A DNA stretch of 64,000 nt, taken from contig JADWOT020000008.1 in the NCBI GenBank assembly GCA_036345935.2, positions 4,939,114 through 5,003,113 on the forward strand, read 5' to 3'. Position numbers and translations under genes: made by a program. Numbering within the stretch: position 1 is the first letter of the stretch; each line of letters begins with the position of its first letter. Source of the DNA: Taenia hydatigena. Its lineage: Eukaryota; Platyhelminthes; Cestoda; Cyclophyllidea; Taeniidae. Under the pieces are notes generated by a model. That model saw nothing but the letters and a program-made list of their open reading frames with translations, searched no databases and was not told the DNA's origin. Shown piece after piece: positions 3,490 through 44,039 of this stretch.

Positions 3490-6400
3490 ATGCGAAGTTT
3501 CCTCCCACTAGTACAATCAGTCTCCGGTGATACCTCTTCACCTCTCCTGATTCTGCTATTAATGGTTTTACCGTGGCAGCCTTACGAAGCATTTGGCTTT
3601 AACATTCCCCGGATCAGAAAGACTGAAACGCCTGATTTCACCGAAGTCTCTCTTTTTATTACCGAAAATGCCAAACCAGGAACGGTTGTTGGAGTTCTAA
3701 AGGAGTACCTACCATTCCTGAAATCGGGTGACGACTTACGTTACCAAATATACAACTTGGGACTTGTACCGGATTCAGAAGTACAGACAGTGTCATCCCA
3801 ATCGACGAATGAGTCAGACCCTATTTTTACAATGGACTCTGTATCCTCAGCCATTAGTGTAGCAGATTCATCCAAGCTAGATCGTGAACGACTTTGTCCT
3901 TTCGCTTCTGCAACGGAGAAAGAGTGTAGCCTTAATTATGGGGTTTCAATTACTCGGAACAATAAATCTGCTCCACCACTCCCACCTGAACATTCTTGGA
4001 TTAGGGTGAAAATCGTGATAAATGATATTAACGACTGTGCCCCGCAATTCAACGATGACAGCACCAAGGAATGCAAAACCATTGATCTACCTGAGGACAC
4101 TGCAGTTGGCACCAAAATTCACCTTCCCAATGCCAAAGATCTTGACAGTTTACAAAATGGTCAGCTGCTTTATCATTTGAACTGTCATAGCGGACCAACA
4201 AATCACCCCTTTGCACTTTATCAAGCGCGCAAATCAGTGCCGGCAACTGATGACAGCATCAGTTCCATTCGACTGCAATTACGGTATCCATTGGATCACG
4301 AAGAACAGAGTGCCTACAATTGTACGTTTACAGTGTGCGACAGTGGGACACCTATTCTCTGTTCTACAATGTCTCTCTGCATTAATGTTCACGATGTAAA
4401 TGATAACGCTCCGGTGTTTTTAAACGAAAATGCCTCTCTTGCCTTGCGTGAAGACACCTCTATCGGTAGTCGCATCACCAAATTAAATGCCACAGATGCG
4501 GATAGTGGAGCCTTTGGAAGTATTCGGTATGCTCTTGTAGGCGACATGTCCGACAGTCTGAGCAGTCAAAGGCACTTTCGATTGGACCCAAACACCGGAG
4601 AGCTGTTTCTAATCTCCCCCTTGCAAGGCGGAACAAAGTTCCACTTTTGGGTGGAGGCACGAGACAGAGGTGAACCCGAGTCACGAATGAGCAGGTCAAC
4701 TCTGTCCATCTACGTCATTGATGTAAACAATCATTCCCCAAAGATTATCGTCCTTCCAGCCGCTAGCAAAATCAAGAACGCCGTAGATAAGGATGCACCT
4801 ATGTTGTCGGTTCGCTCGGTGCTATCGAGGGTAACGAAGGTGCCGTGCACATTTGCTGGGATTAAAGATAGCAAAGTGTGCGAGGCGAATGATGAAGGGA
4901 GCAGTCTTATTCAGATCTTCGAAGATAACGTAGCACCCACCAATGTGGCATTTATTCACGTCTCCGATGCCGATGTGGGTGAGAATGCTCAAGTGGATTG
5001 CCAATTGCATACATATCCTGAAATTCCATTTGGAGAGAGTATCAAGCTTGTGCTGGAACATCAAATCTCCAGCAGTAAGGTTGTATATAAACTTGTACTT
5101 GAAACGGCCCTGGATTGCGAAATCCACTCCCATTCAAAAGGCCGATCCATTTGCAATTCGGCGTGGACTATTCCCGCCAAAATTGGATGCAGTGACTTTG
5201 GTAGTCCAGTTAGGAAGTCCTTTCATAATGTTTTTGTGGAAATCCTTGACACTAATGAATATCCTCCCGTGTTTGAAAAGGAGGTCTATCGCACTGAGGT
5301 GAAGGAGAGTGCTCCGGTCGGCTCCAACATCCTGCAACTCTCTGTCACCGATGCAGATTCCGTGTTACAGGGACTATCTCTGAGTGAGCAACAGAACCTG
5401 AGGCATTTTGCTCCCGTGAATTCCGAGCAGATCCTTCGATATGAATTGGAAAAACAGGAAAACTTGCCTTTTGCCATCGATTCCCATTCGGGAAGGATAT
5501 ACGCCGTGGGTGAGCTGGATGCCGAGAACAAAATGGAGTACTCATTTAAGGTAAGGGCCGCGTCCATGTCGTACCGGTTTGCATTTATCTCTATCTTGGG
5601 TCAATGTTGTTTGCTTTTCGCAACCAAATTGGTAGATTTTATTCCATTTACGGTACCTATTTAGGAAGTATTATAGCATAAGTTACAACTTTCCTCAAAG
5701 TCGGCTATTTTTCCTCCTCCTACCACATTCCGCTGCATAAATAAAGCAAGTTTTTTCCTCTTTTGCGGCTTGCAGGATTTGTCTTTTTATTAAAGCAAGA
5801 GTTGTAGCAACCAAGATGGAAGGTATTAATAGCTATTTTAGCATTCTAATGGGAACAGAAGACACCGTAGATGTAGGTACTGTGATACCAGCTTTATCAC
5901 TTGATTACTCTGACATAAATCATGATCGTTGTTGGTGGCGGTAGTTCACTCGAAGGCAAAAATGAAATCTTTGAGAGGCTTGGCCTGGTTATTTGATGGG
6001 TGTGATCGTTTCCAGGGGCCGCATGGTAGTATTTGAAGCTATTTTAACTATCTGATACCCTGGAGACAATACTTAACCTTCTAGAAATGCCTTCTGATCC
6101 ACCAATTTTGAGATCTGTTGCTCTGTGATGTTCTCCATTGATACACTAAGTGCAGAATCATTTGGTTCTGCGAAAAATACTCTCCACTCTGCCTTTAAGG
6201 TTACATTAAATAGGCTGACCATCAATTCATGGAGTGTTGGACCCACCTTCTGTTACAATAAAGCGAATTGACAGCACTTTGCAGTGTATAGGCGCAACGA
6301 TCTACCCATTCCTCACTGGTAACGCCTAATAAAGCAACAATACCGAAGTTACATTTGGTACTCTGAATTCAATAAAGTGGGTGAAATATGGCATCAATTA

Positions 6401-12400: not shown

Positions 12401-15400
12401 CACAAATGCGCCCTTGTTTTAATTAGCCCATTAAAAGCGGGAAGACGCTTTTATGTGAACCACAACCAGCCAGCATATATTTACCTTAGATTTAATGCTG
12501 AAATTGCATTAGAAGCCAGATTTCGTACTATAATCAAGAAAACAAGATATTTCCTCCTACATTTTAAATTTTATCGAAGGACTGGTGGAATGTAAAGTGA
12601 ACACATTAATCAAATTGCGTGATTTGGTACCATTAAAACCGTTTCTCTTCTATTTGTCATGCTTACCATATACTTTACACTTTAGAAAATACAACGTAGT
12701 TTTGTTTTTAAAGCTGCCTGAAAAATAAGTAAACGAAATGTGAAAATGGGCCCTTGTTAATCGGAGAAGACCTACCAACCTCGCGGTGCACACCTCGGAG
12801 GTAATATCTGCTCCCTTAGTTGCCAACATTGGAGTCTCCTTATCCGAATTAATAAAAGACTTGGCTCGACTGAAACCTGGCAGGAAATCTAGCTAACCCG
12901 CAAGATCGATAAAGTGGAGCTTAGCTTAGTCTCTGTTTTCTGTGCTCCAAATCCCTGTGTCAAATATTTTCTTCGCAAATGAAACCTTTAGTTATCGTTT
13001 TTAAAGAATCTGGTACTTTGACTTCTTTCATGGAAATTGTCAAACACGAATTCGCCTTGTTTAAACGCGCCTCAACTTGGTGCCTACAAGGACGACGCCT
13101 TATCCGAATGCGTCTACTTGAGAGCCACTAATTTTTGCTTCCAATTTTTTGAAGGAGGCGTTTTTAGTAAATAAAATTAAGACATTTGCAGATTTTATTA
13201 ATGCGACTTGAGATGAGGGCTATTTAAAACAAAGTTTTGTTAAGAACTTTGAAGAATTGTGATAGTGGACCTTGCTTAATATGCGTATTATAACGCAATC
13301 AACTCTGTTTTTTGACAACAAATCTATTTTGCAACTTTAATCACAAAAATTATGGCGTATAGAGGCACAATTGAGACATTAAAATGATCGTCTTTCTTTG
13401 AAGCTGGAGTGAATAGAGTTCTCCCTTTTAGTTTAATGAGAAGCTGTCTTTGTTTTTGTACATCCAAAATCCGCCCTGCTTTGTTTACAGCATAGGGAGG
13501 GAAGACTGGTTTTCTTTGTAACGGTTTGACAATTTAATGTCTCACAACTTCTCATGTGAAATCACCACACACGCAATGCGTGATAACCCATAACTGCCTG
13601 TGAATGTAATGGAAGCGTATTCCCCAAACAATGTGTACATAAAAAGCTGGTATGCTAATCTCTTGATTTTGTAAGGGATTATTAGGAAGTTCATAAGGCA
13701 ATTAATTATTCCGCTGGTCAATGCTACTGCCTTGCCAAAACACGGGACCTCTTAATGGATACACAAAACTTTCTAACACCAATAATAAAAGTGAAATAAA
13801 GCATTTATACGTTGATTGGTAGCTGCGAGTTTACCATTGTTATGGTCACAAGTGTGGGGAGAAGACAATGAGACATGTGTCTGCTGCTAGTGTACCTCGC
13901 TGTGCGTGAAAACACTTTAAGCTAGTTATTTCGCTTGAAAGGAGGGTAATGCCCCTAGTCTGCCCTAAAATTGCAAAAAAAGTCATGCATGTGGGACAGA
14001 AGCAGTAACATTGATGTGCAGAAGGACTAAGAGGCTGCTGACATAACCCGGATGTCATGCCGCCGAGCGGAAGTACAACCCACCCACATAATCAGACGCA
14101 GGGATAAACAAACCAGCAAAATATTACAAAACGATTTGGGTGACAATACGCGTGTTTATAAGCAATAACTGTAAAGCAATCCTTTGATCCAATCAAACAT
14201 CAGATAATAGCATTTTAACCCTTAAAGTTCATCTATGGATAATTTCATCGCAAAATTTAAGGACGCACTAAAAGCTTTCGAGGTCAAAGATTGTGATAAC
14301 AACTTCAACAAAAAACTTTTTTTAACAAAACCACTACTGCTTGTTTCAGAAATTGCACTTTTGTAACGCTCTTAGTAAGGATAAAAAGTCCACGCTTTGG
14401 AAAAGAGATCGCATGCATCTCCGAAAATCAAGGCTTCAACAATTATGGTGATCTTCGACCTCATTTTACCATATAAACAAGTGATTTCATGATTTTAAGT
14501 AAAAATTACAAAACTATTGAGACTTTTCTGAGTGCCAAGGATGGCATAAGAGCAAAGAGAAAAGGCAAGCCCACTCGGCTAGGACAATATCGTCACCCTG
14601 TATTACAGGGTTTCTAAAGTGCTCTCGAGCTCTTTAATTTTATGATGTCTAAAACATTCAGAACTTTTTTTCCAAACAGAGCCACAGTGACCATCGAAAT
14701 AACCGACGAAAATGACAACGCCCCAATTTGGTTGTACCCACGTGCGCCCGACGACTCGCGCATCCAAATTGGGGTGGAATTCCCCACCACTCGAATCATC
14801 ACACGAGTGCGTGCCGTGGACGCAGACAGTGGCAAGAATGCACGCATTATCTACTCCTTGGAGGACGCCTCCTTCGTCCACTTCAGCCATGACCGTACCT
14901 GCGACCTCTTCGCCCTCTTCTCCCTTGAAAGTACAACCGGTCACCTTAGAATGCGAGAGGGAATAAGCCCCTGTATCAAACCCGGAGACTCAGTTCGTCT
15001 CCTCCTTCGAGCCACTGATGGAGGCACACCGCCTCTCTCAAAAGATGCAGAGTTCTTCCTCGAATTTAAGGCTGGATCAGAGGTTCTAAATATTCCTCCT
15101 GAATCCACATTCCTAACACAGGCCGACGAAGCGTTCGGGAATAAACCACTTAGTTCGGAATCACAAATTCGTGAGAGTCTTGTTCAGACTGACTCTGCTG
15201 GCTCACTCACCACTGAAGAGGATACAGAACTAGCCGGTACAAAACGGATGTATGTCTTTGTGCTGATGATCGTGGTTCCAGTGGCGGCTATTCTTCTTTG
15301 TTGTTGTCTGGTAACCACCCTTCTCTTTGTTATTCGATCTCGACGAAGAAGACGTCCACGTCGAAGTGGCTTCAAGGAGTCATGCGTTCTGAATGAATTG

Positions 15401-18400
15401 GACGTGTTGCAGGCAGAAATAGGAACAAATCGTTTCTCGTCACTAGACACCTGCTCAGGTCGCAATAAATCGCCAACGCCTTCAACATCACAAATGGTCT
15501 ACTCAACCGATGCTAGAACCCTCTCCTCACAGCAGCGGTTAAGACCAGGCGGTGGAAATGACTTCGTGCACACCATAACAGGCATCCATTTGGACGACGC
15601 CACCTCTGTGCATAGTGGGGATGTACCACCAGAGGGGAAGGTTGTCTACCCCATCTACCTGAAACCCCTGGTCGGTGAGCCGACCACTTCAGCGCCAGCA
15701 GGCGATGCAGTGATTCGGTTGACCAGCATTCCAGAACTAGAGGGAACCATACTTGTTCCGTTGCCGAGACACAACCTCACCACGCCGACTGTAAATTACC
15801 ATCAACCTGTTTCTGAAGCTGTAAGCGTTGATAATTTCTACTTGAGCAAAACCGCACACCCAATTCACCTATGCATTGCAAAAGCTTTGCTTATGGGAAA
15901 TTTTATCTACACAAATGGTTCATTCTGTTGTACCAACTGTCCGTTTGACATCTACGTCGCGAACAGGCTTAAGATGTTGCCTCCTCTTTGGCATGGCACA
16001 GACACCGCGATGGAGGAGACTAGTACTGCATGTATTTTGTTCCTCTCCGCATGGCAAATTTTCATCCCGCTTTGGGAATTCCAGCCCCAACCATCAAAGG
16101 ATATCGCAGACGGCGTCTTGTTTCTTGATTGCACAAATTTAAGGGTTTCTGAAGTCAGGTTCCAATTGTGCAGTGCCTTCTCATTCATCAGCAGTCAAAT
16201 CCCGACTTCAAACAGCTTTCTAAGTGTCAGAAATCACACGGAATTGCCCGTCTCATCGCATTGTTTCTAAATGGGTCGCTTACTTCGATTAAACGTGATT
16301 CGAGATTAGCATTTAGTGACGGATACTTCTGATGCATTCCAAACAAAGCTCTTGTTAAGATGTTTTGTTTTCCAGTCAACCAGATGCCTCACTCAGTGAG
16401 GTAGTGCGCTCTGCAATCGCGGTTCGCTTCTTGGCCCAATCTTTCTGCTCTCAGGCTATTCTCACAGCCCTTTTTGCTTCCACAAGCTTCATCTGGTAGT
16501 CTTTTTGGTGTCTGCTGGCTTTCCATGTAGTTGGTATGATTTATGAGCTTGGTTACATGCACGCTTCCCCTCGAAACTTGTGTTCTAACCATCGGTCGCC
16601 CCTAACCCGAGCCAGCTGACAAGATTTTGGTGTTTCTCCTGTCTTTAAAGAAATTTTCTAGCGATTTACTTCCTCATTATAATGAATTTCATCAAAAATT
16701 TCGTGGCATTATCTCGGTAAAACCGATCCCTTAAATAGACGTTTAGATGAGCCAATCTCCTTCCAGGTATCACGTAGATTAATCATAAATTGCGTTTAGA
16801 CAAGATCATCTACTTGAAGAAGGCGAAGTACTGGTTTCTTTAAGAAACTTACTTAAAATCTCATTTGAAAGAAAAATTGGAAGTTAGGCATAGCAATGTG
16901 GGGCACGGGCAAAGTTTTGCCCACCGAAACCAATCCACAGTTTGTACACTGACTTCTGCGCCTGAATTGATGAATAAACTCTTGTGTTTTTTCCCATTCA
17001 CAGGGCATCCTGATGGCTTGTATGATTCCAGACGCCGACAAGTCAAGTGCGGATTCGGGCAAAGGTCAGAGCGATGATGACGTCTTCAGTCACGAAGGTG
17101 AGTCCATGAGTCAATAATGGTTTTCCCCATTTATTTATGTTTGTCACGACCTTTGCGATGGTCAAACGGGTTTTGTTTACCTTCAGTGCAAACCTTGCCA
17201 AAAGGCTAGCTAGGAAGGTGAAATTAGCATTCGCCTGACATTACACACCCCGCTGACTCAGTGGATGCGTTGTGTGGCGACCTTTTGTGTCAGCAAATCG
17301 TGGAAATATGTCTTGTTTGGCTCAACCCGTTGCTTCTTCCAATTTTCTGCAAAAACGCAGAGTGTGTTCATCTTCCCCACTCTCACCTTTTGTTCATGCA
17401 AATTTTGAGCCTACTCCGTGAAGTTTAGCCTATTTAATTAAAATTTTCTATTTTTTTTTTACTACACTCCTTATTCTCAGGCCGAGTTAGGCTAGTTACG
17501 CTTAGAGATTTAAGTATCCTGAACTGGACATGGCGTGTCCCTACCCTTGTGCCATCAAACCCTCACGAGAAGGCAAAGCGACTTCCACCAAATTGCCTCT
17601 TCCGTCGAGAGCCACTAGCGGCTATGAGTGTTAGTGGGTGGCGTTTGAGTGGGCCTTGTAAATCTTCCACTACTTCAAGCTTTTCCTCCCTACCGTACCC
17701 CCTTAAGCGACATTTCACTGACAGGTTTTACTTTATGATTTTTCGTGTTTACAGATTGATTTAACATGCTTGAAAACTATTGAGAAAGCGTTGACACCAG
17801 CTAACCTTCCCATGTATTAATTATTAATTCCTCAACGATATCCCTCTTAATTCAATTACCTTTTATTTAAAATTTCCGTTGTTCATATGGCAACCGGCAA
17901 TTCGTCGATATTGCCGCTCTATTAATTTAAACAATTCATCAACTTTGAACAGAAGTGCTGCAAAGACTGTGTATTTCTTAGTACCTAAAATAATTAGAAC
18001 TGAAAATATGCGACGTCAATTTTTCTGTGTCACTTTACCTGCATAAACGCAATAGACCCGATGCTCGTGACTTTTAATGTCCATTTACGAAACAGACACG
18101 TGCCAATCCCGCTTTTCCTCCATTGGTCTCCAATCATCGCTCTAACGTCTATTGATCTAAAAGACAATTAAGGGACTTAAAAAGAGACAACATGAGAATT
18201 TCTGTTGTTCCATAATCGTACCGTTTTGGTGCTTCTCGTCCTCCATTTAATCGAGGCGTTTTGATCAACAAATGCATGACCAAAATACAATTTTGTGTGC
18301 TGCTTTTATCCCGAGGATAAGAGAAGTGCTAACTGCGAAAAGTTTTGGCAACGACTTAATTGACACCGCGAACAAAAGCCCGCTGATGCCTTTTAGGTGT

Positions 18401-19511: not shown

Positions 19512-20673
19512 GGTCCCCCTTCCTCTCCTCCAAAGCCCCATCTCTTCTTCCCTTTGTGTCGCCCTTGCGTTCCCCACACACTCGATTGCACTCCACTACT
19601 GCATTCCTCACTGTACACCGCGTTATCAGTTCACGGTTATGTAAAAAAAATGAGAGAGTTGAATAGAACCTAATATGGTTATGCACGCGCTATAACGTCG
19701 GCGCTCGTCAATATTTGGGTAAACCAACAAAGCCTTGTCTGAACATGGCTAGATTATGCCTCCACTCTAGAGGAAGCGTCTGTGGGAGGCAGGCAGCAGT
19801 CCACTATTTCTCTCTCGGATATCATTCACCATTGCCCCATACGGCGATGAGATGGTAAAATTTACTTCGCCTTCAACAAGATTTTTTTCGGAGCATCGTG
19901 CATGCTTGCATCCGCTCCGTCGACTGCAGATGCGTGTATATTAGCCTCCGTGATAAATGAGAAACGGAATGCATTGGTGGAGTTCAAAGTTAGAAACACA
20001 CGCATATTTGGCTGAAGCAAATTTATCTCAACTTTTTGCGCCTAAAAGGGTACATATAGAAGTCATTAAAAGGTAATAATAAATATGAGGAAAAAGGGCT
20101 TCACGTCTTGCATTAAAACTGCATCTCCAAAAGGAGGCGGAGGCTGGTGTGCGCAAATCAGATCCAACGTCATCAAAGAGAGGATCGTACTTAAGGCATT
20201 TAAAGTGGAAAGTTGGCAAATTTTAGGACTAACAAAGGTACCGCCTTTTATGGCATCGAAGGGATAACTTTAAATTGCGGCTTTGGTGAAAGAGTCATAC
20301 TGGGAGTTCCCACTATTGTGCCTTCGAGACATGACAGCTTCCCCAACACAGTCCTTCAAAATGTAAAATTCCAACTTTCTGTCCCAGTTTTATGGCTCAA
20401 ATCGCCTTCAAGAAGGCCTTAAATCGCTATGTCAAAGTGCCTTAAATTGGTCCTAAAGCCCTCATTTCAATGAATACTTTCGGCGTAGAAGGTCAGGAAT
20501 AATTTTTCCATAACTTTAAGAAATTTGACAACGGACTCAAATTAAAAAATGTTAATCTACTAGCTATCGGTGCCCCTGTGAGGTATAGAAGAAAGAGAAG
20601 AAAATATCTTTCATTCTGCACGCTCACAGTACACTTCAGCTCCTTTCTGCTCCAACCTCTCATTCGGTTAACC
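19512..20673. other. Protocadherin 3' flank up to the inverted repeat
   Basis: No gene seen. The region probably holds the protocadherin 3' UTR; an AATAAA hexamer lies at 20078-20083, 567 nt past the proposed stop. The remainder is unassigned intergenic sequence up to the outer edge of the left palindrome arm. Confidence 0.5.
20078..20083 (+). promoter_or_regulatory. Candidate poly(A) signal for the protocadherin
   Basis: A canonical AATAAA hexamer on the coding strand downstream of the proposed terminal exon. Hexamers are common in AT-rich DNA, so this is weak evidence. Confidence 0.25.
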
Positions 20674-23614
20674 TTTTATCACTTCAACAACGAAGTGTGA
20701 CGCATAGGCTCCATCACTTCTGCTGTTCGTGGTGTTGACAAATCGGTTCACAAGGCGTGTCTGCTTGCGAGCGACACACCATAGAGTTCATCTTCTCTCT
20801 AAGGTAACATCTCACTGTAGTACATCTTGATAGGTCACCCAACTTCCAGGCAATGCAAGCCGACGACGTGGACAGTGGGACGCATAGTTGCCTTCCACAC
20901 CTCAAAACACTTTCTTCAAACAAGGAAGCCAGCTCAGCTAGGTCGGTTTAGCCATGCTACAGTGCATTCAGCACCAGAGCATTGTGCAAGCACAGCAGTG
21001 GAAAGTAGATTGTGCTACTTCCCTCCACCAACTCCATCACCAATGTCCCACCTTACCTTCACTGGCATCCATTCAGAACAATCACTTCAAAGCACACATC
21101 CCACATCCATTTGGCTACCACAACGATCGCGTGATATTTCAGCTAAAAAACCGTCAACCAACTCTCATTTGTGGTGTGGCACACCGTCCACTAATCACCA
21201 CTCTCTGATGCTGCCAGATCACCGGAAACGTTTCTACTTTTTCCTACACGACGTCTACCCCAACCCACCCCACTCCACCCCACACCCTCTACCCCATCCC
21301 ACCCTATCTCATCCCATCCCCTCCTCCTTTTGTCTGATGTGTCCTGCTCTTCAAGCATTACAACACGGTCATTTGGCGAACACAATCGTGCAAGCAAAAG
21401 TGCAGTGGGAATGTTGCGTCGTCGCATTCTAACCCTGTCTAGACAACCCTGCCACCGCTTACACCGATGACTATGGGGAAGGCCTTACACACAAAACACA
21501 TTCCCCACCAAGTCATCACACCATCCTCATTCGTGGGGAGGACGACATCACCCAACACTGCTGTATTCACTGCGTTTGCATTCCAACCTTGTGCTATGAA
21601 ACGCATTTCGTACAGGTGGTTGGTTGTCGGCCACACCACAGAACAACCCACAATGCTAGCTTCCACTTCCATATCCCCCTTCTACAATTCACTACCGAAG
21701 TTAGCATCGTGCTTTGTGTCGAGGCCAGCTAGACACCTGAATGCACAACACAAATGTCAAGTGGTCGTTTAAAAATGAGCTTGGGAAGAAGGAAAAGAAG
21801 AAGAGAAAGCGTGACAGGAGAAGGAGACTTTACTTTGCCATTGTAAGTCGCCATGCAAATGAAGGCTTACACACGACTGTCGTCGTGCTGCCAACAATCC
21901 ACCTGATGTGCCTCGATTTCGAGGTGTCCTCTTTCCCACTTACCAGCCTCGTGGTCAAGTGGGAGGATCCAAGTGTGGCCACGTCTTAAACCCACTGAAT
22001 CTGCGAAGTAGTTGACACGATACAGCCAATCACATGACGAAACACCATGTGACAGCTAACGGTTTCTAACACCAACACTTCATTCACTCACTCCCCTTTT
22101 AACGCCATTTCGCCAAACGGTTCGCACTGCTCAGTTATTTCCTCAATGGTGGTCAGAAAACACAATACAACACCAAAGCAAGCCATTTGAGAGAGAAGCC
22201 TCATTGTGGGAGAGTCGAGTTTCGTGAGGTGTCACTGAAAGTCACCGGGAGGAGGTAATGGATTCGGTGATAGGAACATTTTGCATGCGCTCAACTCAAA
22301 TCAACTAGGATAGGTGCTGTCTGATGACGGAAGAAGGCATTACTTTGTCCGTCCGGTGCTCCCTTCCTCACATGGCCATGATATTATCATGCTCGTGTGT
22401 GGACGTCTTAGAGGCTGCGGTAAAACGATGATCGCGAACCGTTGTTTGCGTCAATGCAGCAGACACTACCACTTGCTCTACACCCTGTGTTGCATCGGGG
22501 TCGTTTCATCAATTATTCTTACTTACACAGCTAATAACTGCCATTTACAGCCAGCAAACGAGGCTTAGGGGATAATAGAGTGACAGAAGCACTGTGTCAA
22601 TGCGACGGAACACAGATTCTACTGCTTATGATTCTCACCTCCACACTCACTTAAGCGCACTTCCCACCTCTCAAACCCCAATGTCTGATTCCACAGAATC
22701 CATTAATTGGTTGGGAGGACACCACGAATCAGACGACACACCATATGCCACTCCAAGTCAACATTTGCTGACATTTCACCAACCAACTTCATCAGAAGTA
22801 CGTTGTAGGCAGAAGTTTTGCACTGCCTCAGTCGGAAATTATGACAGCCAAATTGGATCATTTGAAAGCAAAGTCTGTATCTCAGCAAATGCAATGGGAT
22901 TGCGCGTTTTGTCAAGCATCTCTGCAACCCAACGCAATGAAGTGATCCCACGAGTGAGGAGTCCGAGTTGCGTGCGTCCGTCTAATACGCCTCCTGCATG
23001 TTGCAGTGGTGAAGTGATGATCATGGACCCACCATTAGCTCCACTCCACCATCCAGATAGACTGTCCCCTGTGCTGCATGGAAGTCGTTTCATCGCTCAT
23101 GCTCACACAGAGTGATACAACCGGCCATTTGTTGATGATGAACAAGGTGCAAGGAACATGACAGCTGTGAAAGCATCGATTCAACGTCGTGGTAAATAGC
23201 TTCCACTGTTTGCGTTTCCGACGTCTTCATTGATGCATCCATGCCATCCACCTTCTTCACTCTCCTTCTGCTCAACTACTTCTAGGCTGTTCATGCGTTC
23301 TTACGCCTCTGGTCAATTTGCGTGGTAAGAGTCATGTTGTCAGGCCTTCAAGCGAGCTAAAAACACCAGACGTTGTGTGAGGTACGAGCCATCTCTTCCC
23401 TTCCTTCCAATTGTGACGTCCTCAATCACTGAAAACCAATTTCCCACTACAGCTCAATTGGTATAGCTTACCTCTGCAGAGGGTCAACTTCTGCCGAAGT
23501 AAGTGTATTGAACGTTGGTTCTTTTATAAGAAAAGCAAAATGCTGAAGAGTCACTTGGAAAGACTTGCTGCGCTTCATCTCGGTGTTGCAGACATCCAAA
23601 GTGGTGGAGGCGTA
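20674..23614 (+). repeat. Left arm of a large inverted repeat (~2.9 kb)
   Basis: This arm reads as the reverse complement of 24663-27558. Anchors pair at a constant coordinate sum: 48232 from the outer edge to about 21850, 48276 to about 23350, and 48277 to the inner edge. The two steps are a 44-bp segment (21855-21898) present only here and one extra A in an A-run near 23360. Spot reading gives roughly 1% base mismatches. The + strand of this arm is rich in A and C. Open frames reach 201 codons but none resembles a known protein, and I see no transposase, reverse transcriptase or terminal motif. Confidence 0.93.
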
Positions 23615-24662
23615 CCCAAGGGAATGCCGAGTTAGCAACATTAAGAATGTGCCATAAATCCTCCCCATTCTCGCTGCATTGCCCTCTTTCTTTAAAGTCA
23701 AAAGTATACAAGGGTCTTCACCTTTACTAACTATAGCATTTGAAAGTATTTATGATTTCTTAAGCCTCACATCCAGTTCTTTGGTACTGCCTCATTTGTC
23801 TACTTAAAAATAAAAGTTTATTTATACGTCTGCCTGTCCTTGTGTACAAAAAACGTCCGTCTCGACTCTCGCAAACGCCCATATGGACAAGAAGGCAAAA
23901 GACGAAGGAGGGAAGGAAGTAAGGAGAAATTCCATATTTCATGTGCTCCTCTCAGTTTGAAGGGATTTGTAGCCAACTTTTTGTGTGATACTGTCCAATA
24001 ACTGGAAGGACCTTCATCCTCCTCATCCTCCTCCTCCTCTTCCTCCTTCTAGTGTATGCGCCACTCCCGGCTAGCATTTCATGCAAATGCCTTCATTCTT
24101 TTCTTTTTGTACTCCCAAATGCCATATTGTTGTGTATTTAGTAGGACTGCTGCTGTTGCCTCATAATTCCTAAGGAGTGGGCAACTGCATCGCTACATCC
24201 CGTTGCCCATTCGAATGTCATGGTTTTGTTAAATGCGTTTGAGAATAGAAAACACTAAATTTGCTGCTAATGTTTCACTTCGAGGGTAGGATGAATGAGG
24301 TCTTGGGCATTCCCACGCGAATCCAGGCGCATGGGATGGCTTAACGGCACCGACTTGCCTCCTTTCGACTGCCACCTACATTGGCTAGGCGTAATTAATG
24401 TGTATCAGAATGCAGTAGATGCTGGAAAAAATGTTTAGAACAAGAAGGTAATTTGTCTTGGGGACTCTGTCCTTTGCATCCGTGGGAAATTTTGTGGTGT
24501 TAGCCTATTTTGGAGGTGATATAGCGTGTTTGTTAAATGGTGAGAGGCGTGAAGATCGGACTGCGCTGGTTTGTTTTTAATTCTTAAAATGTAGTTAAAC
24601 AGCAAAACTTAAGAAGTTTTCATACCATTATCTTAACATCGCAATCCTAATATTACCTCAAG
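23615..24662. other. Unique spacer between the palindrome arms
   Basis: About 1.05 kb that is not inverted-repeated. It contains a short CTC/TCC-rich imperfect microsatellite near 24017-24050 and no recognisable gene. Outside the arm edges (left aggcgtac at 23608-23615, right gtacgcct at 24662-24669) the two sides stop matching. Confidence 0.8.
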
Positions 24663-27558
24663 TACGCCTTTACCACTTTGGATGTCTGCAACACCGAGAT
24701 GAAGCGCAGCAAGTCTTTCCAAGTGACTCTTCAGCATTTTGCTTTTCTTATAAAAGAACCAACGTTCAATACACTTACTTCGGCAGAAGTTGACCCTCTG
24801 CAGAGGTAAGCTATACCAATTGAGCTGTAGTGGGAAATTGGTTTTCAGTGATTGAGGACGTCACAATTGGAAGGAAGGGAAGAGATGGCTCGTACCTCAC
24901 ACAACGTCTGGTGTTTTAGCTCGCTTGAAGGCCTGACAACATGACTCTTACCACGCAAATTGACCAGAGGCGTAAGAACGCATGAACAGCCTAGAAGTAG
25001 TTGAGCAGAAGGAGAGTGAAGGAGGTGGATGGCATGGATGCATCAATGAAGACGTCGGAAACGCAAACAGTGGAAGCTATTTACCACGACGTTGAATCGA
25101 TGCTTTCACAGCTGTCATGTTCCTTGCACCTTGTTCATCATCAACAAATGGCCGGTTGTATCACTCTGTGTGAGCATGAGCGATGAAACGACTTCCATGC
25201 AGCACAGGGGACAGTCTATCTGGATGGTGGAGTGGAGCTAATGGTGGGTCCATGATCATCACTTCACCACTGCAACATGCAGGAGGCGTATTAGACGGAC
25301 GCACGCAACTCGGACTCCTCACTCGTGGGATCACTTCATTGCATTGGGTTGCAGAGATGCTTGACAAAACGCGCAATCCCATTGCATTTGCTGAGATACA
25401 GACTTTGCTTTCAAATGATCCAATTTGGCTGTCATAATTTCCGACTGAGGCAGTGCAAAACTTCTGCCTACAACGTACTTCGGATGAAGTTGGTTGGTGA
25501 AATGTCAGTAAATGTTGACTTGGAGTGGCATATGGTGTGTCGTCTGATTCGTGGTGTCCTCCCAACCAATTAATGGATTCTGTGGAATCAGACATTGGGG
25601 TTTGAGAGGTGGGAAGTGCGCTTAAGTGAGTGTGGAGGTGAGAATCATAAGCAGTAGAATCTGTGTTCCGTCGCATTGACACAGTGCTTCTGTCACTCTA
25701 TTATCCCCTAAGCCTCGTTTGCTGGCTGTAAATGGCAGTTATTAGCTGTGTAAGTAAGAATAATTGATGAAACGACCCCGATGCAACACAGGGTGTAGAG
25801 CAAGTGGTAGTGTCTGCTGCATTGACGCAAACAACGGTTCGCGATCATCGTTTTACCGCAGCCTCTAAGACGTCCACACACGAGCATGATAATATCATGG
25901 CCATGTGAGGAAGGGAGCACCGGACGGACAAAGTAATGCCTTCTTCCATCATCAGACAGCACCTATCCTAGTTGATTTGAGTTGAGCGCATGCAAAATGT
26001 TCCTATCACCGAATCCATTACCTCCTCCCGGTGACTTTCAGTGACACCTCACGAAACTCGACTCTCCCACAATGAGGCTTCTCTCTCAAATGGCTTGCTT
26101 TGGTGTTGTATTGTGTTTTCTGACCACCATTGAGGAAATAACTGAGCAGTGCGAACCGTTTGGCGAAATGGCGTTAAAAGGGGAGTGAGTGAATGAAGTG
26201 TTGGTGTTAGAAACCGTTAGCTGTCACATGGTGTTTCGTCATGTGATTGGCTGTATCGTGTCAACTACTTCGCAGATTCAGTGGGTTTAAGACGTGGCCA
26301 CACTTGGATCCTCCCACTTGACCACGAGGCTGGTAAGTGGGAAAGAGGACACCTCGAAATCGAGGCACATCAGGTGGATGGCGACTTACAATGGCAAAGT
26401 AAAGTCTCCTTCTCCTGTCACGCTTTCTCTTCTTCTTTTCCTTCTTCCCAAGCTCATTTTTAAACGACCACTTGACATTTGTGTTGTGCATTCAGGTGTC
26501 TAGCTGGCCTCGACACAAAGCACGATGCTAACTTCGGTAGTGAATTGTAGAAGGGGGATATGGAAGTGGAAGCTAGCATTGTGGGTTGTTCTGTGGTGCG
26601 GCCGACAACCAACCACCTGTACGAAATGCGTTTCATAGCACAAGGTTGGAATGCAAACGCAGTGAATACAGCAGTGTTGGGTGATGTCGTCCTCCCCACG
26701 AATGAGGATGGTGTGACGACTTGGTGGGGAATGTGTTTTGTGTGTAAGGCCTTCCCCATAGTCATCGGTGTAAGCGGTGGCAGGGTTGTCTAGACAGGGT
26801 TAGAATGCGACGACGCAACATTCCCACTGCACTTTTGCTTGCACGATTGTGTTCGCCAAATGACCGTGTTGTAATGCTTGAAGAGCAGGACACATCAGAC
26901 AAAAGGAGGAGGGGATGGGATGAGATAGGGTGGGATGGGGTAGAGGGTGTGGGGTGGAGTGGGGTGGGTTGGGGTAGACGTCGTGTAGGAAAAAGTAGAA
27001 ACGTTTCCGGTGATCTGGCAGCATCAGAGAGTGGTGATTAGTGGACGGTGTGCCACACCACAAATGAGAGTTGGTTGACGGTTTTTTAGCTGAAATATCA
27101 CGCGATCGTTGTGGTAGCCAAATGGATGTGGGATGTGTGCTTTGAAGTGATTGTTCTGAATGGATGCCAGTGAAGGTAAGGTGGGATATTGGTGATGGAG
27201 TTGGTGGAGGGAAGTAGCACAATCTACTTTCCACTGCTGTGCTTGCACAATGCTCTGGTGCTGAATGCACTGTAGCATGGCTAAACCGACCTAGCTGAGC
27301 TGGCTTCCTTGTTTGAAGAAAGTGTTTTGAGGCGTGGAAGGCAACTATGCGTCCCACTGTCCACGTCGTCGGCTTGCATTGCCTGGAAGTTGGGTGACCT
27401 ATCAAGATGTACTACAGTGAGATGTTACCTTAGAGAGAAGATGAACTCTTTGGTGTGTCGCCCGCAAGCAGACACGCCTTGTGAACCGATTTGTCAACAC
27501 CACGAACAGCAGAAGTGATGGAGCCTATGCGTCACACTTCTTTGTTGAAGTGATAAAA
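24663..27558 (-). repeat. Right arm of the large inverted repeat (~2.9 kb)
   Basis: Reverse complement of 20674-23614, lacking 44 bp relative to the left arm between positions about 26377 and 26378. The outer end reads gaagtgataaaa at 27547-27558, pairing with ttttatcacttc at 20674. Differences from the left arm are mostly single transitions. Same absence of recognisable coding content as the left arm. Confidence 0.93.
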
Positions 27559-28339
27559 AGATGAACAAGTTTGGTGAAGAAAGCGGGTAAAATGCATTGT
27601 GAACCTCAAGAATGAAGGAAATTCCTTATCTCCTCCGTCTTTTTCTCCCAAGGGCACTGACACCTGAAATAGAAAAGAGAAACTTCCAGCCAGTTTTAGC
27701 GCCTTACCAGCATGGCAAGATCATGGCTATGACAACGCAGTGTGAAAGTTTTCGCCAACAAATATCGGCATACTGATGCATAATTTATACCTCCACTTTG
27801 TCCGTCCTTGTTTTCCTCTCTATCTCTTTTCCTCTTTCTTTTAAGGGCTTTTTATCCTTTCCTGAATATGAAATGGACTCTTAAGCAGATTCGATTTTCT
27901 AGCTACTCTACTTTGAATGCGTTTCGCCTGAAGCAGACAGGCAATTCGTTGGCGTTGATTATGCCAGACACAATGTAAGCATTGGTTGGGGTAGGCTTAA
28001 TTTGACATTTTATTTACAAATGACAGTTGCACGCATTGCTAAAATCTGATTTGCATTGTCATCGCCTCCCCAATGAGGCGCCTGCTTGTCTCGGTTTAGC
28101 TCGGCGCAAGTATTTTCTCGCCAGTGCTGCAGTAAAATGAAAGCCTCTAATATTCTTCTAATCCGTCTGACAACCTTGAGGGTCTGATGTGTCAAAGGAG
28201 CATAAATCAAGATAAATGAGCAGTTAAGGGAAAATAAAATGTGAATAGAAACAGTGAGGAAGGACTTAACACGGCAAGGCTGTGTTTACATTGGCTCCTT
28301 TATCCCACGATCGCGGTAGTCAAGATGATGCTTTTATTT

Positions 28340-30490: not shown

Positions 30491-30766
30491 CTTCCTTCCT
30501 TCCTTCCTTCCTTCCTTCCTTCCTTCCTTCCTTCCTTCCTTCCTTCCTTCCTTCCTTCCTTCCTTCCTTCCTTCCTTCCTTCCTTCCTTCCTTCCTTTCC
30601 TTCCTTTCCTTCCTTCCTTCCTTCCTTCCTTCCTTCCTTCCTTCCTCCTTCCTTCCTTCCTTCCTTCCTTCCTTCCTTCCTTCCTTCCTTCCTTCCTTCC
30701 TTCCTTCCTTCCTTCCTTCCTTCCTTCCTTCCTTCCTTCCTTCCTTCCTTCCTTCCTTCCTTCCTC
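30491..30766. repeat. CTTC tetranucleotide microsatellite, 276 bp
   Basis: About 69 CTTC/TTCC units with two register slips near 30598-30606 and 30647. The long Ser-Phe-Leu-Pro and Lys-Glu-Gly-Arg open frames across it are repeat artefacts. Length is probably polymorphic and may be collapsed or expanded in the assembly. Confidence 0.97.
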
Positions 30767-34137: not shown

Positions 34138-37100
34138 ATGGATTCGTCGCCGGAGATGGATAAGTTTGGCATTTCAGAGCAGGATTATGAGTACATGTTT
34201 GATCCTCTCAAGCGTCGAGGCTTCACTTCCAAAAAGCAGCAGATATATGGTGTCTTCGCTTCGGATTCTGACTCTGAAACTGAAGAGAGTGGCATGAGCT
34301 CCATGGCCTCTATTCGCAAGCGTAAGGGTTCAAACTATTCTGGACCCATCACTTTTGTCAGTGGTGGAATTAAGGTATCTTATCATTAATGTACTCCTTT
34401 GGGGCATTTGGCTCAGGCGAAAGTCCCAAATGGGACATACCTATTCATCAAAGCTGTCTCATTATCCATTCCATACCGCTAAGAATTTCGTGTTGCTGAA
34501 GACTTTTGTTTAGTTAGTTGAGTGGGATCGTGCGTGGGCTGCATCTAGTGCATTGTTTTTTCTACTCCAGGAGGGTTCCAAAACTGTGGAGTCTGTGGTG
34601 AATGAGGAGGATCTGGATGTCGGGATATCAGATGAGGAAGAGGACAAGCGCTTATTTTCTGTAGACACTCACGCGAAGGAACATACATCGAAACAGCACG
34701 TTTTTGGGAAGCCTGCACCATTTAGACCACGTAAACCCATGCCTTCGTCTACCACTCAGGGTTTTGGGTCATGGGAACGGCATACCAAAGGCATTGGAAT
34801 GAAATTGTTGCAGAAGATGGGTTTTAAAGCTGGTGAGGGTCTCGGCAAAGCTGGACAGGGTATCGCTACTCCAGTGGAAGCGGTCAAGCGCGTTGGAAAA
34901 GGCGCAGTCGGTTCAATGGGTCCTGAGGTTGCTCCTGCTCCTCGCAAAGGAAATGAACCAGCTCCGTTGCCTGAAGAGCGTCAGAGTGATAATTGTAAGC
35001 AGCAGCGAGTTTCCTCATTGCTTTTTGTGTGCACGACTTAATTTGTTTGCGATTTTTTTTGCTTCAGCTGGTCTCCCTAGGTATAAGAAAAAGTCTGTTG
35101 TAAACGGTGACTCTGGTTCGGAAAAGCGTCCCCTGAAAGCGATTTATATGTCGGCTGATGAACTTATTGCTAGTGTTAGCCCAGCCACACCTGCTGCAGC
35201 AATCAAACTGCATGGCCCTTTTATCCAAAACAGGTAATTTTTACATGGGACCTCTTTTCTTCTTGTCTCCCATCTTTCTCTTGTTATAGTGAGTTGAGCA
35301 AAGTGAAGGTGATTGATATGACACAGAAGGAGCAGCGTGTATATGAGGGCTACGAGGCTGCTCTGTCTAGTTCCTCTCGCTATGGTCGACGCATTGATGA
35401 GGGCGATGATGATGCCGTGGATGCAGAAACGCGTAAACGTGAGCGACGTATTGAGGGTCACTTCTTCGAAGTGCCTGTGCTCTGCCACAATATTGATCTT
35501 GTTATCAAGTCGACTGAGGACGAGATCAGGCGTCTAGATCGTGGTGCGCGCTATGAGGAGGATAGGACTGCTGGACTACAACATGAAATCGATCGTCTCA
35601 GTCGGGTCTGGTCTTTCTTCGTTTATGTTTTCAACCCTTCAATCTTCGCATTTCTGTATATTGATACATTGATTCTGAATGGGCTTGGTTTTCTCATTAT
35701 TCGATGTCAATCCCCTTGTTAGTAATTGGTTGGAAAGCATTGCACCACAAAATTACTTAAGTTCTAGCAAATTCTTAACTCCACCTCGTCGGAGTCGCTC
35801 TTTACGGTTTTATGAGGCATAGGAGCCTGAAAGTAGCCTTTTAATAGCGTATAAAAGGGCTGACAGTCTAGCCGTCTAGGTAATAACGGCAGAGCTTGAC
35901 ATCACTCTCGTAGCGGTTGAATGGGACGCTCACCCATGCAGTTAAAACAAATCTCGTTCTGAGATGACGTGTTTTTGGACTCTGAACAGACTTGATGAAG
36001 CATGATCATTTAAGAGAACATTGGTATTTTCTGAGCTTACTGCATGGCTATTTGATGATGGAGTGAGTTTGAGTGCTTTTAGCTGGTTCTATGTTTCGAG
36101 CTGTTCCTTAGTAGATAAAGTCTCAGTCATTGCTTTTCAGACGCTATTCCTCCTCATCCCCTTTGTTAATCCGTATCATTTACTGTGGAGAAACCTTATT
36201 CCCTTTGTTTAACGAACCAAGGTCGATTTTTTATGCTTTAAAGCTTGGAATCGTCAAAAATATGTATGGATAACTTATCGGGAAACTGCTCTCCTCTTAC
36301 TGTGCCGACTGGTTTGGGACTTGTCTATCTCACATGAGCTATTGGTTTTCACTTTTACACTCCATAAGTGGGCTTGTTACTTGACCTCCCATTTTACTTG
36401 CATAAACAGGTGGTGGAAAAGGCAGCGTTTGATGTAGATGAGTTGACAGCAGCCCTAGATCTCATTGGCCAGTTCGAATGCGCCCTGAAAAGAGGCGAGT
36501 GTGGGTCGAGCCCCGAGGCCTGTTCCTCCTGGCTCACACGGATTCGGCGGGAGTGCGCTGATCTCTTCGAACTGCCTGCCCTCCTCGCTGCCGTGGCGCG
36601 GCCTCTTTTGGACAGCATGCTGATTAGTTGGAAACCCCTCGTTGTGAGTTCTCTCATGCGTTTGTCTCCTTTAACAATTCGAATCTCTATACGACAGCTT
36701 GGTGTGAGTAACTTCCGATTCTTTGAATAGGCTTTAATAAAAAGGATTTTATAACCAGTATTAACGTGGTTAACTTCATTTGAATCACATGGCGGTGGGG
36801 CACGTGGACTTCAATGGTGTTTAAATCCACCTCTGATCCTAAGCACACCGGTGATTTTATTTGGAGTTTGGGATATTTTTTCAGCTTTCGAATGCATTTC
36901 TGATGTAACCATCAGTAGGCTAGTGTTGCTTTCTAGGCTGTGAAGTTTATGAAGTTTCAGCAGGGAAATATGCTTTCTTTAGCTCCGACTAACTGCTTAT
37001 AATAATTCCAAGTTATTGGAGTCAAAGTAGTTGGGTGTTTACTATGTAATCCTTGGGCTAAATCTGAGACCTCCTTAATCTCAGGTCCATATTTATTGCA

Positions 37101-42522: not shown

Positions 42523-42710
42523 TGTAGTACTTTGTTTGTTTGTACTACCGGTTTTTGGTCAGGGTGACAGAGGTAGCAGTATTGCCTTAGCTGCGTAGGC
42601 TAGCCTCCAAGCCATGCCAGCAGCCTATTTCCATCTGTCCGTTGAATATACATATTCTATCCTAGCATTCTGCCTTCTTTTGCCATCAGAGAGAGACTCG
42701 AGAAGCTACA
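42523..42710 (+). repeat. 5' LTR of the TRIM element (188 bp)
   Basis: Starts TGTAGTACTTTGTTTG and ends AGAAGCTACA, forming the short TGTAG/CTACA inverted ends typical of LTRs. It aligns through its length with 43235-43420 and 43588-43772, sharing the CTCTGTCCG(T/G)TGAA block and the gccttcttttgcc block. Confidence 0.85.
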
Positions 42711-42711
42711 T

Positions 42712-42723
42712 TGGTGGCAGCGG
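42712..42723 (+). other. Putative tRNA primer-binding site
   Basis: TGGTGGCAGCGG lies one base after the 5' LTR. A TGG start is expected of sites that pair with a tRNA 3' CCA end. The priming tRNA was not identified. Confidence 0.6.
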
Positions 42724-43234: not shown

Positions 43235-43420
43235 TGTAGTACTTTGTTTTTTTGCACTACCGGTATTCGGTCGGGGTCACAGAGGTGGCCATATTGCCCT
43301 AGCTGTGTAGGCTGGCTTCCGGGCCATGCCATCATCTTGTTTTCCTCTGTCCGTTGAAAATAAATGTTCCATCTTAGTATTCTGCCTTTTTTTGCTTCAA
43401 GGGAGCCTTGGAACGCTACG
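43235..43420 (+). repeat. 3' LTR of the TRIM element (186 bp)
   Basis: Starts TGTAGTACTTTGTTTTTT and ends GAACGCTACG. The many differences from the 5' LTR mean the insertion is not recent, or that the two LTRs come from different elements joined by recombination. Confidence 0.82.
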
Positions 43421-43587: not shown

Positions 43588-43772
43588 TGAAGTACTTTGT
43601 TTTTTAGAACTGCCGGTTTCTGTCAAGGTCACAGAGGTGGCCATATTGCCCTAGCTGCGTGGGCTGGCCTCTGGGCCACGCCAGCAGCCGTTTTCCCTCT
43701 GTCCGGTGAATATATATATTCTATCCTGTCACTTTGCCTTCTTTTGCCTTAAGGGAGCCTCGGGACGCTACA
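43588..43772 (+). mobile_element. Solo LTR of the same family with 5-bp target duplication
   Basis: A 185-bp LTR, starting TGAAGTACTTTG and ending GGACGCTACA, without internal sequence. It is flanked by GTCGT at 43583-43587 and GTCGT at 43773-43777, a perfect 5-bp direct duplication as left by integrase. A full element probably inserted here and was reduced to one LTR by LTR-LTR recombination. It lies within 270 bp of the SMARCE1 coding start. Confidence 0.85.
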
Positions 43773-44039
43773 GTCGTTGCTGTCAATTATTCAACTTTCC
43801 ATTGTTAATGGAATTGTTCCCTGCATGGGTTCTGATACCTGAAGGTCCCAACTAGCTAGGTTAAATAATTTTATGTGTGGAACTTGCAAATCAAAAAGTG
43901 CCAGCAAATAAACATTTAATCCGATCAAAATTACCTGCAGTCCTACCACCATGGCACTAAACGGGCGGGATCGCTAGCCCGCCAGCCTAGTGCGTCCTCG
44001 CCATATTACGTGCTTCTTTTGGGTTTTTGCGTTTTATTG

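Follow-up and report, generated by a model that had tools for sequence, protein, structure and literature searches.

A palindrome with near-identical arms and decayed edges in an intergenic region of the tapeworm Taenia hydatigena

Introduction

Palindromes of the gene-converted kind are already known in other animals. In the present study, a palindrome of 6.9 kb was analyzed in a stretch of 64,000 nucleotides (hereafter, the window) from the tapeworm Taenia hydatigena, and the nearest known systems appear to be the maintained inverted repeats of Caenorhabditis and the sex-chromosome palindromes of primates. The intergenic inverted repeats of Caenorhabditis were reported to have persisted through speciation (Zhao et al. 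2007, PMC1803023); for instance, the F44E5.4 locus possessed arms of 2,207 bp and a spacer of 126 bp (PMC1803023). As far as they are described there, these repeats resemble the Taenia palindrome in occurring in an invertebrate and in having near-identical inverted arms, a short spacer, and diverged sequence outside the part that is kept. However, the Caenorhabditis repeats contained paralogous gene pairs, and their age was obtained from orthologues in other species, whereas the Taenia arms hold no recognised gene and their age is deduced from the decayed edges.

The palindromes of primate sex chromosomes (PMC8981503, PMC3723533) share with the Taenia palindrome an identity of more than 99% of the aligned arm bases, a spacer, and arms with a raised content of guanine and cytosine (GC). 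According to the first of these sources, human X palindromes had a median GC of 46.3% versus 41.2% (PMC8981503). The mean minimum conversion tract inferred for the human Y palindrome P6 was 2,068 bp (PMC8981503 and PMC3723533), which is on the scale of the Taenia arms. The primate palindromes differ in being sex-linked, much larger (median arm of 37 kb in the conserved X set) and gene-bearing in 10 of the 12 X arms. Moreover, conversion was demonstrated there by polymorphism together with species comparison, unlike the reasoning applied here. The hairpin RNA (hpRNA) loci of Drosophila, as described in PMC10317233, are similar in that an inverted repeat can form double-stranded RNA if it is transcribed. 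The arms of the Drosophila loci typically resemble their target genes, whereas no target-like second locus of the Taenia arms was found in the genome search. Among the titles listed in literature searches on palindromes and inverted repeats of flatworms, tapeworms, Schistosoma and Taenia, none pointed to such a palindrome of a flatworm; the one paper obtained for tapeworm inverted repeats with gene conversion dealt, judging from its title, with mitochondrial genomes.

Results and Discussion

Structure of the Palindrome

The palindrome was proposed in an earlier note made from the sequence of the window, and it is confirmed to be real. Self-BLAST of the 64-kb window returned a single inverted pair, 20567-23615 and 24662-27660, with a bit score of 5084. 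It was also the sole near-identical inverted pair in a scan of a region of 304,000 contiguous bases (826 N) at an E of 1e-8. The near-identical core of the left arm (20686-23605, forward strand) and that of the right arm (24672-27546, reverse strand), which is its reverse complement, shared 98.05% identity over 2,920 columns, a value that counts gaps. Over 20686-23610, the arms differed at 14 of the 2,880 aligned pairs. Two of these lie side by side at the inner edge, and 12 were therefore counted for the core proper. These differences consisted of 11 transitions and 3 transversions and were not mainly homopolymer indels. As described in the earlier note, the core contained only two indels, accounting for 45 gap columns. 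The larger is a block of 44 bp, which the alignment placed in the left arm only, on the forward strand at about 21855-21898 (edges ambiguous by about 2 bp, with AT microhomology), and the other is 1 bp in an A run. Among the 14 arm differences, five were CpG transitions, above the expectation from the 111 CpG sites (p of 0.003), hinting at CpG hypermutability in the worm.

The arms are separated by a spacer of 1,046 bp (23616-24661) with ordinary composition, a GC of about 0.42 and weakly decayed homology at both ends. Besides itself, the spacer had two weak matches in the 304 kb. The right end of the spacer (24581-24661) weakly matched a place about 60 kb leftward (66%, E of 7.5e-4). Inverted arms that are at least about 97% alike around a unique spacer are characteristic of a gene-converted palindrome, and this arrangement was found here, the spacer having been compared with the 304 kb.

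The copy number of the arms was determined by a search of the worm's own genome (306,030,797 bp in 1,354 contigs), in which the window is C8:4939114-5003113. The arm piece 20674-21674 and the remainder 21600-23620 each matched both arms only, plus one 49-bp low-complexity match. Within the sensitivity of the search, the 306-Mb genome holds the arms at one locus only.

Divergence at the Arm Edges

Outside the core, the left outer zone (20567-20685, forward strand) and the right outer zone (27545-27660, reverse strand) were still homologous in register, with 82 of the 110 aligned bases in agreement (about 75%). The anchored alignment of the outer zones scored 73, compared with a best score of 9 in 1,000 base shuffles, and when the flanks were aligned freely, the local score was 81, whereas none of 200 dinucleotide shuffles exceeded 51. 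In the 304-kb region, the outer zones paired only with each other (E=4e-12, and none else at an E of up to 0.01), and therefore they are not copies of a locally common repeat. In the own-genome search, the left outer zone matched itself alone; this search missed the right zone, so its sensitivity to relatives of 68% identity was poor.

The difference in divergence between the edges and the core was large. Mismatches were found at 28 of 110 positions in the outer zone, compared with 12 of about 2,880 in the core when the two inner-edge differences were excluded (Fisher p of 7e-33). The corresponding Jukes-Cantor distances were 0.31 and 0.004, respectively, or about 70-fold apart. Over 20567-22000, a model with two rates was better than a model with one rate by 61 log units, and the step was placed at 20674, the maximum-likelihood change point in identity. 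This position is also where the earlier note had put the start of the palindrome, and that bound holds, but the note had overlooked the decayed homology that extends for about 120 bp beyond either end of the core. At the inner edge, 80 spacer bases per side gave an anchored score of 0 against a mean of -25, and 10 of 2,000 base shuffles scored as high. The decayed edges suggest that the duplication is older than the divergence of the arms implies, with the inner edge being weak and, as a free alignment, negative. Furthermore, the arm differences showed a weak enrichment in the outermost 360 bp (5 in 360 bp versus 7 in 2,510 bp, p of 0.011), where the cut was picked by eye after the data had been seen.

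A second inverted pair was present about 46 kb beyond the palindrome, at L007:68-1045 and L007:6692-7631 (about 74068-81631 on the window scale). Its copies lie 5.6 kb apart and were aligned over 1,005 columns at 75%. Since these copies are only 75% alike, inverted orientation alone does not keep copies similar. A frame in this pair resembles what we take from its translation to be a short-chain dehydrogenase/carbonyl reductase, and the pair looks like an unconverted inverted gene duplicate.

Base Composition of the Arms

The GC of the arm was 0.482, compared with 0.420 for the spacer and 0.432, 0.452 and 0.436 for three flanking stretches. A GC raised in the arms relative to the flanks is a further characteristic of gene-converted palindromes. 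The dinucleotide composition of the arms was also unusual. The observed/expected ratios of TpG and CpA in the arm were 1.42 and 1.43, respectively, and exceeded those of all 408 overlapping 2.9-kb windows in the 304 kb, while the ratio of TpA was 0.52 and was equally low in 1 of the 408; some of these windows overlap the palindrome. At the 600-bp scale, the arms stood out less strongly, and the arm mean of the combined dinucleotide measure was reached by 1.7% of 1,007 windows. The signal dropped at the arm edges, and the spacer and the flanks were ordinary. For fifteen putative exon stretches in the window, the TpG/CpA values ranged from 0.98 to 1.44 and the TpA values from 0.38 to 0.82, and the arm composition is at the exon-like end of the range. 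The arms could be transcribed or have once been coding, or their composition could stem from prolonged conversion.

Probable Maintenance of the Arms by Gene Conversion

Since old edges are not expected of a young duplication, the best explanation of the locus would be an old inverted duplication whose arms have been kept alike by arm-to-arm gene conversion, and we consider this probable. From the anatomy, the two-speed divergence with its sharp step, the single locus and the higher G+C of the arms, we infer conversion, either repeated or as one large event. On this reading, the locus would be an inverted duplication of old age within intergenic DNA of a tapeworm chromosome. The arms would pair, and one would serve as the template for the repair of the other, so that mutations in the arms would be either erased or copied onto both. 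Conversion would end at the frayed edges, which would keep diverging. Because no gene could be recognised in the arms, recombination, rather than selection on a protein, would maintain the structure. Conversion is preferred because one known process suffices, while the alternative needs coincidences at the outer and probably at the inner edge. The raised G+C of the arms and the denser differences in the outer 360 bp fit conversion as supporting signs. Among the four options listed in the earlier note, arms kept alike by gene conversion is thus the one favoured by the decayed outer zone, the weak inner edge and the GC-raised arms.

Several points weigh against this explanation. The usual proof of conversion is species comparison together with population data, whereas here conversion is read from the sequence of one assembly. 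The outer zone spans no more than about 120 bp, and the homology at the inner edge was significant only when anchored: as a free local alignment, the spacer halves scored 25, which was not above the shuffle mean of 26.8. A single conversion, large and recent, would account for the data nearly as well as conversion that went on continuously. The differences between strong and weak bases showed no lean to one arm (7 versus 6). The raised GC could be the original composition of the arms, and the arm value was reached by 4.2% of 596 local windows, some of which overlap the palindrome. GC-biased conversion combined with CpG hypermutability was simulated in a simple model as the source of the arm composition and was rejected, since the lowest TpA in nine settings was 0.73, compared with 0.52 in the arm. 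In addition, short-read polishing of the assembly could have inflated the similarity of the arms.

Arm-to-arm conversion is best known from gene-bearing sex-chromosome palindromes, where it is frequently regarded as a means of repair in the absence of a partner. To our knowledge, tapeworms have no sex chromosomes, and the host is hermaphroditic. If gene conversion does act on the Taenia palindrome, neither genes nor sex linkage would seem to be required for conversion between inverted repeats that lie close together. Moreover, frayed edges could be a way to separate converted from young palindromes within a single genome.

Alternative Explanations

The alternative of a young inverted duplication is rather unlikely. 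In that case, a recent template switch or break repair would have copied about 2.9 kb in inverted orientation, and the 75% edges would belong to a short inverted repeat of greater age, which served as the primer or the boundary of this event. The divergence of the core is low throughout (about 0.4-0.5%), as expected after one recent event, and a pre-existing inverted repeat would be a plausible primer for fold-back synthesis. However, an earlier decayed inverted repeat would be required exactly in register at the outer ends of the core, and chance would have to be invoked a second time for the weak in-register homology at the inner edge. A young duplication, which was also listed in the earlier note, explains the core but does not explain the old edges.

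It is improbable that the palindrome is a functional hairpin-RNA locus, in which a read-through transcript would fold into a 2.9-kb double-stranded RNA for Dicer and the pairing of the arms would be selected. The exon-like composition, low in TpA and rich in TpG/CpA, that ends at the arm edges would be in agreement with such a locus. In addition, tapeworms were described as being without a canonical piRNA pathway, and microRNAs or endogenous small interfering RNAs (siRNAs) were reported in parasitic flatworms, according to PMC6880638. However, the Drosophila hpRNAs were described as typically complementary to one or few targets (PMC10317233), whereas the genome contained no second match of the arm beyond the 49-bp low-complexity stretch, in a search that matches of single-siRNA length would escape. 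A combination of both ideas would regard the palindrome as a functional source of 2.9-kb double-stranded RNA maintained by conversion, in which selection on a stable transcript would account for the arm composition and conversion would keep the duplex perfect. This combination is also doubtful, and we give it little credence.

An assembly artefact, in which a single-copy stretch or its two haplotypes were falsely joined head to head, is very unlikely. The core differences of about 0.4% are compatible with allelic variation, and palindromes of one rotifer assembly were reported not to be found in a related species (PMC5916493). However, a false join would not make a zone of 75% identity in register outside the arms, and the left zone was single in the genome search. 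Furthermore, the spacer lies between unlike flanks, and the window is inside a 16.26-Mb sequence and has no N by base counts. Finally, a giant foldback or terminal-inverted-repeat transposon copy, an option also listed in the earlier note, has the right shape, since a short unique spacer is flanked by a pair of long inverted arms, but can practically be dismissed, because dispersed copies were not found in the genome search (the arm is at two places only, besides the 49-bp low-complexity match) and 12 frames of the left arm had no transposon protein domain. The outer ends, where a target-site duplication would lie, are decayed, so that no exact terminus could be placed.

Content of the Arms

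As far as tested, the arms are without a convincing gene, known RNA or transposon. The longest stop-free frames of the arm were 203 and 178 amino acids (aa), both running from outer to inner on the left arm. In 500 dinucleotide shuffles, the longest frame was at least 203 aa in 33, and the second-longest was at least 178 aa in 11. Three-base periodicity was absent in the 203-aa frame (157 of 200 shuffles were as strong) and weak in the 178-aa frame (20 of 200); for reference, seven putative exons gave 0 of 200 in five cases and 6 of 200 and 3 of 200 in the other two. A stop-free stretch of 297 bp (21433-21729) was periodic (1 of 200 shuffles) and had no Pfam match.

No Pfam family was above the cut-off in 12 left-arm frames, where two matches had E values of 0.16 and 0.26, and the 203- and 178-aa frames had no family at an E of up to 0.1. 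In a large protein search, the 203-aa frame had no match among 128 candidates. The 178-aa frame had one match among 22 candidates, P0001, which is the right-arm reading of itself and whose source was not shown, and no solved structure matched this frame at an E of up to 10. The codon scores of the arm frames overlapped those of the putative exons, so coding is compatible with them. A coding gene in the arms was thus unsupported by the shuffles, periodicity, Pfam and protein searches, and paralogous genes of the Caenorhabditis type were not found in the open reading frame, Pfam and periodicity tests, while the codon scores leave coding possible. Within these tests, the statement of the earlier note that no gene is visible in the arms holds. 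Regarding RNAs, no Rfam family reached the gathering score in the window, and none was found at an E of up to 1 in 20560-24670. The local folding z-scores of the left arm ranged from -3.2 to +1.7 (38 windows, both strands).

The arm contains an ancient tandem duplication, recognised by the alignment of unit A (21979-22675, forward strand) to unit B (22664-23276, forward strand). The alignment score was 183, whereas none of 200 base shuffles exceeded 122, and the best stretch had 60.6% identity over 160 columns (E=1.8e-7). A coding origin of this duplication was rejected. The mismatches were distributed over the three phases as 11, 17 and 10 of 33, 33 and 32, and not in the third-codon phase, and the translated comparison matched a number of different frames on either strand (best E of about 1e-10) and favoured none of them. 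When the gap costs were set loosely, alignment of the first half of the arm to its second half gave a score of 204 (best of 40 shuffles, 194). For the arm and the cadherin 3' region, the score was 278 (253 in 15 shuffles), and for the arm and the right flank (minus strand), it was 355 (354 in 15 shuffles). These base shuffles do not preserve the dinucleotides of the arm, and the small excesses are not trusted. More diffuse internal repetition in the arm is possible.

Genomic Surroundings

The palindrome is intergenic, between cadherin-domain frames and a G-patch frame. The cadherin frames were 3490-5664 (above the Pfam cut-off) and 14618-16270 (below the cut-off), and the G-patch frame, on the other side of the palindrome, was 34514-35041. 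A neighbouring caspase frame was 95% identical to caspase-2 of Taenia solium, 92% to that of T. crassiceps and 90% to that of Echinococcus granulosus, in agreement with the flatworm host proposed in the earlier note. A CTTC tetranucleotide array of about 68 copies was found at 30491-30765. Three direct repeats of about 160-195 bp with 80-83% identity were located at 42523-42718, 43235-43419 and 43588-43780, and inverted relatives of these repeats were present at other places of the 304-kb region.

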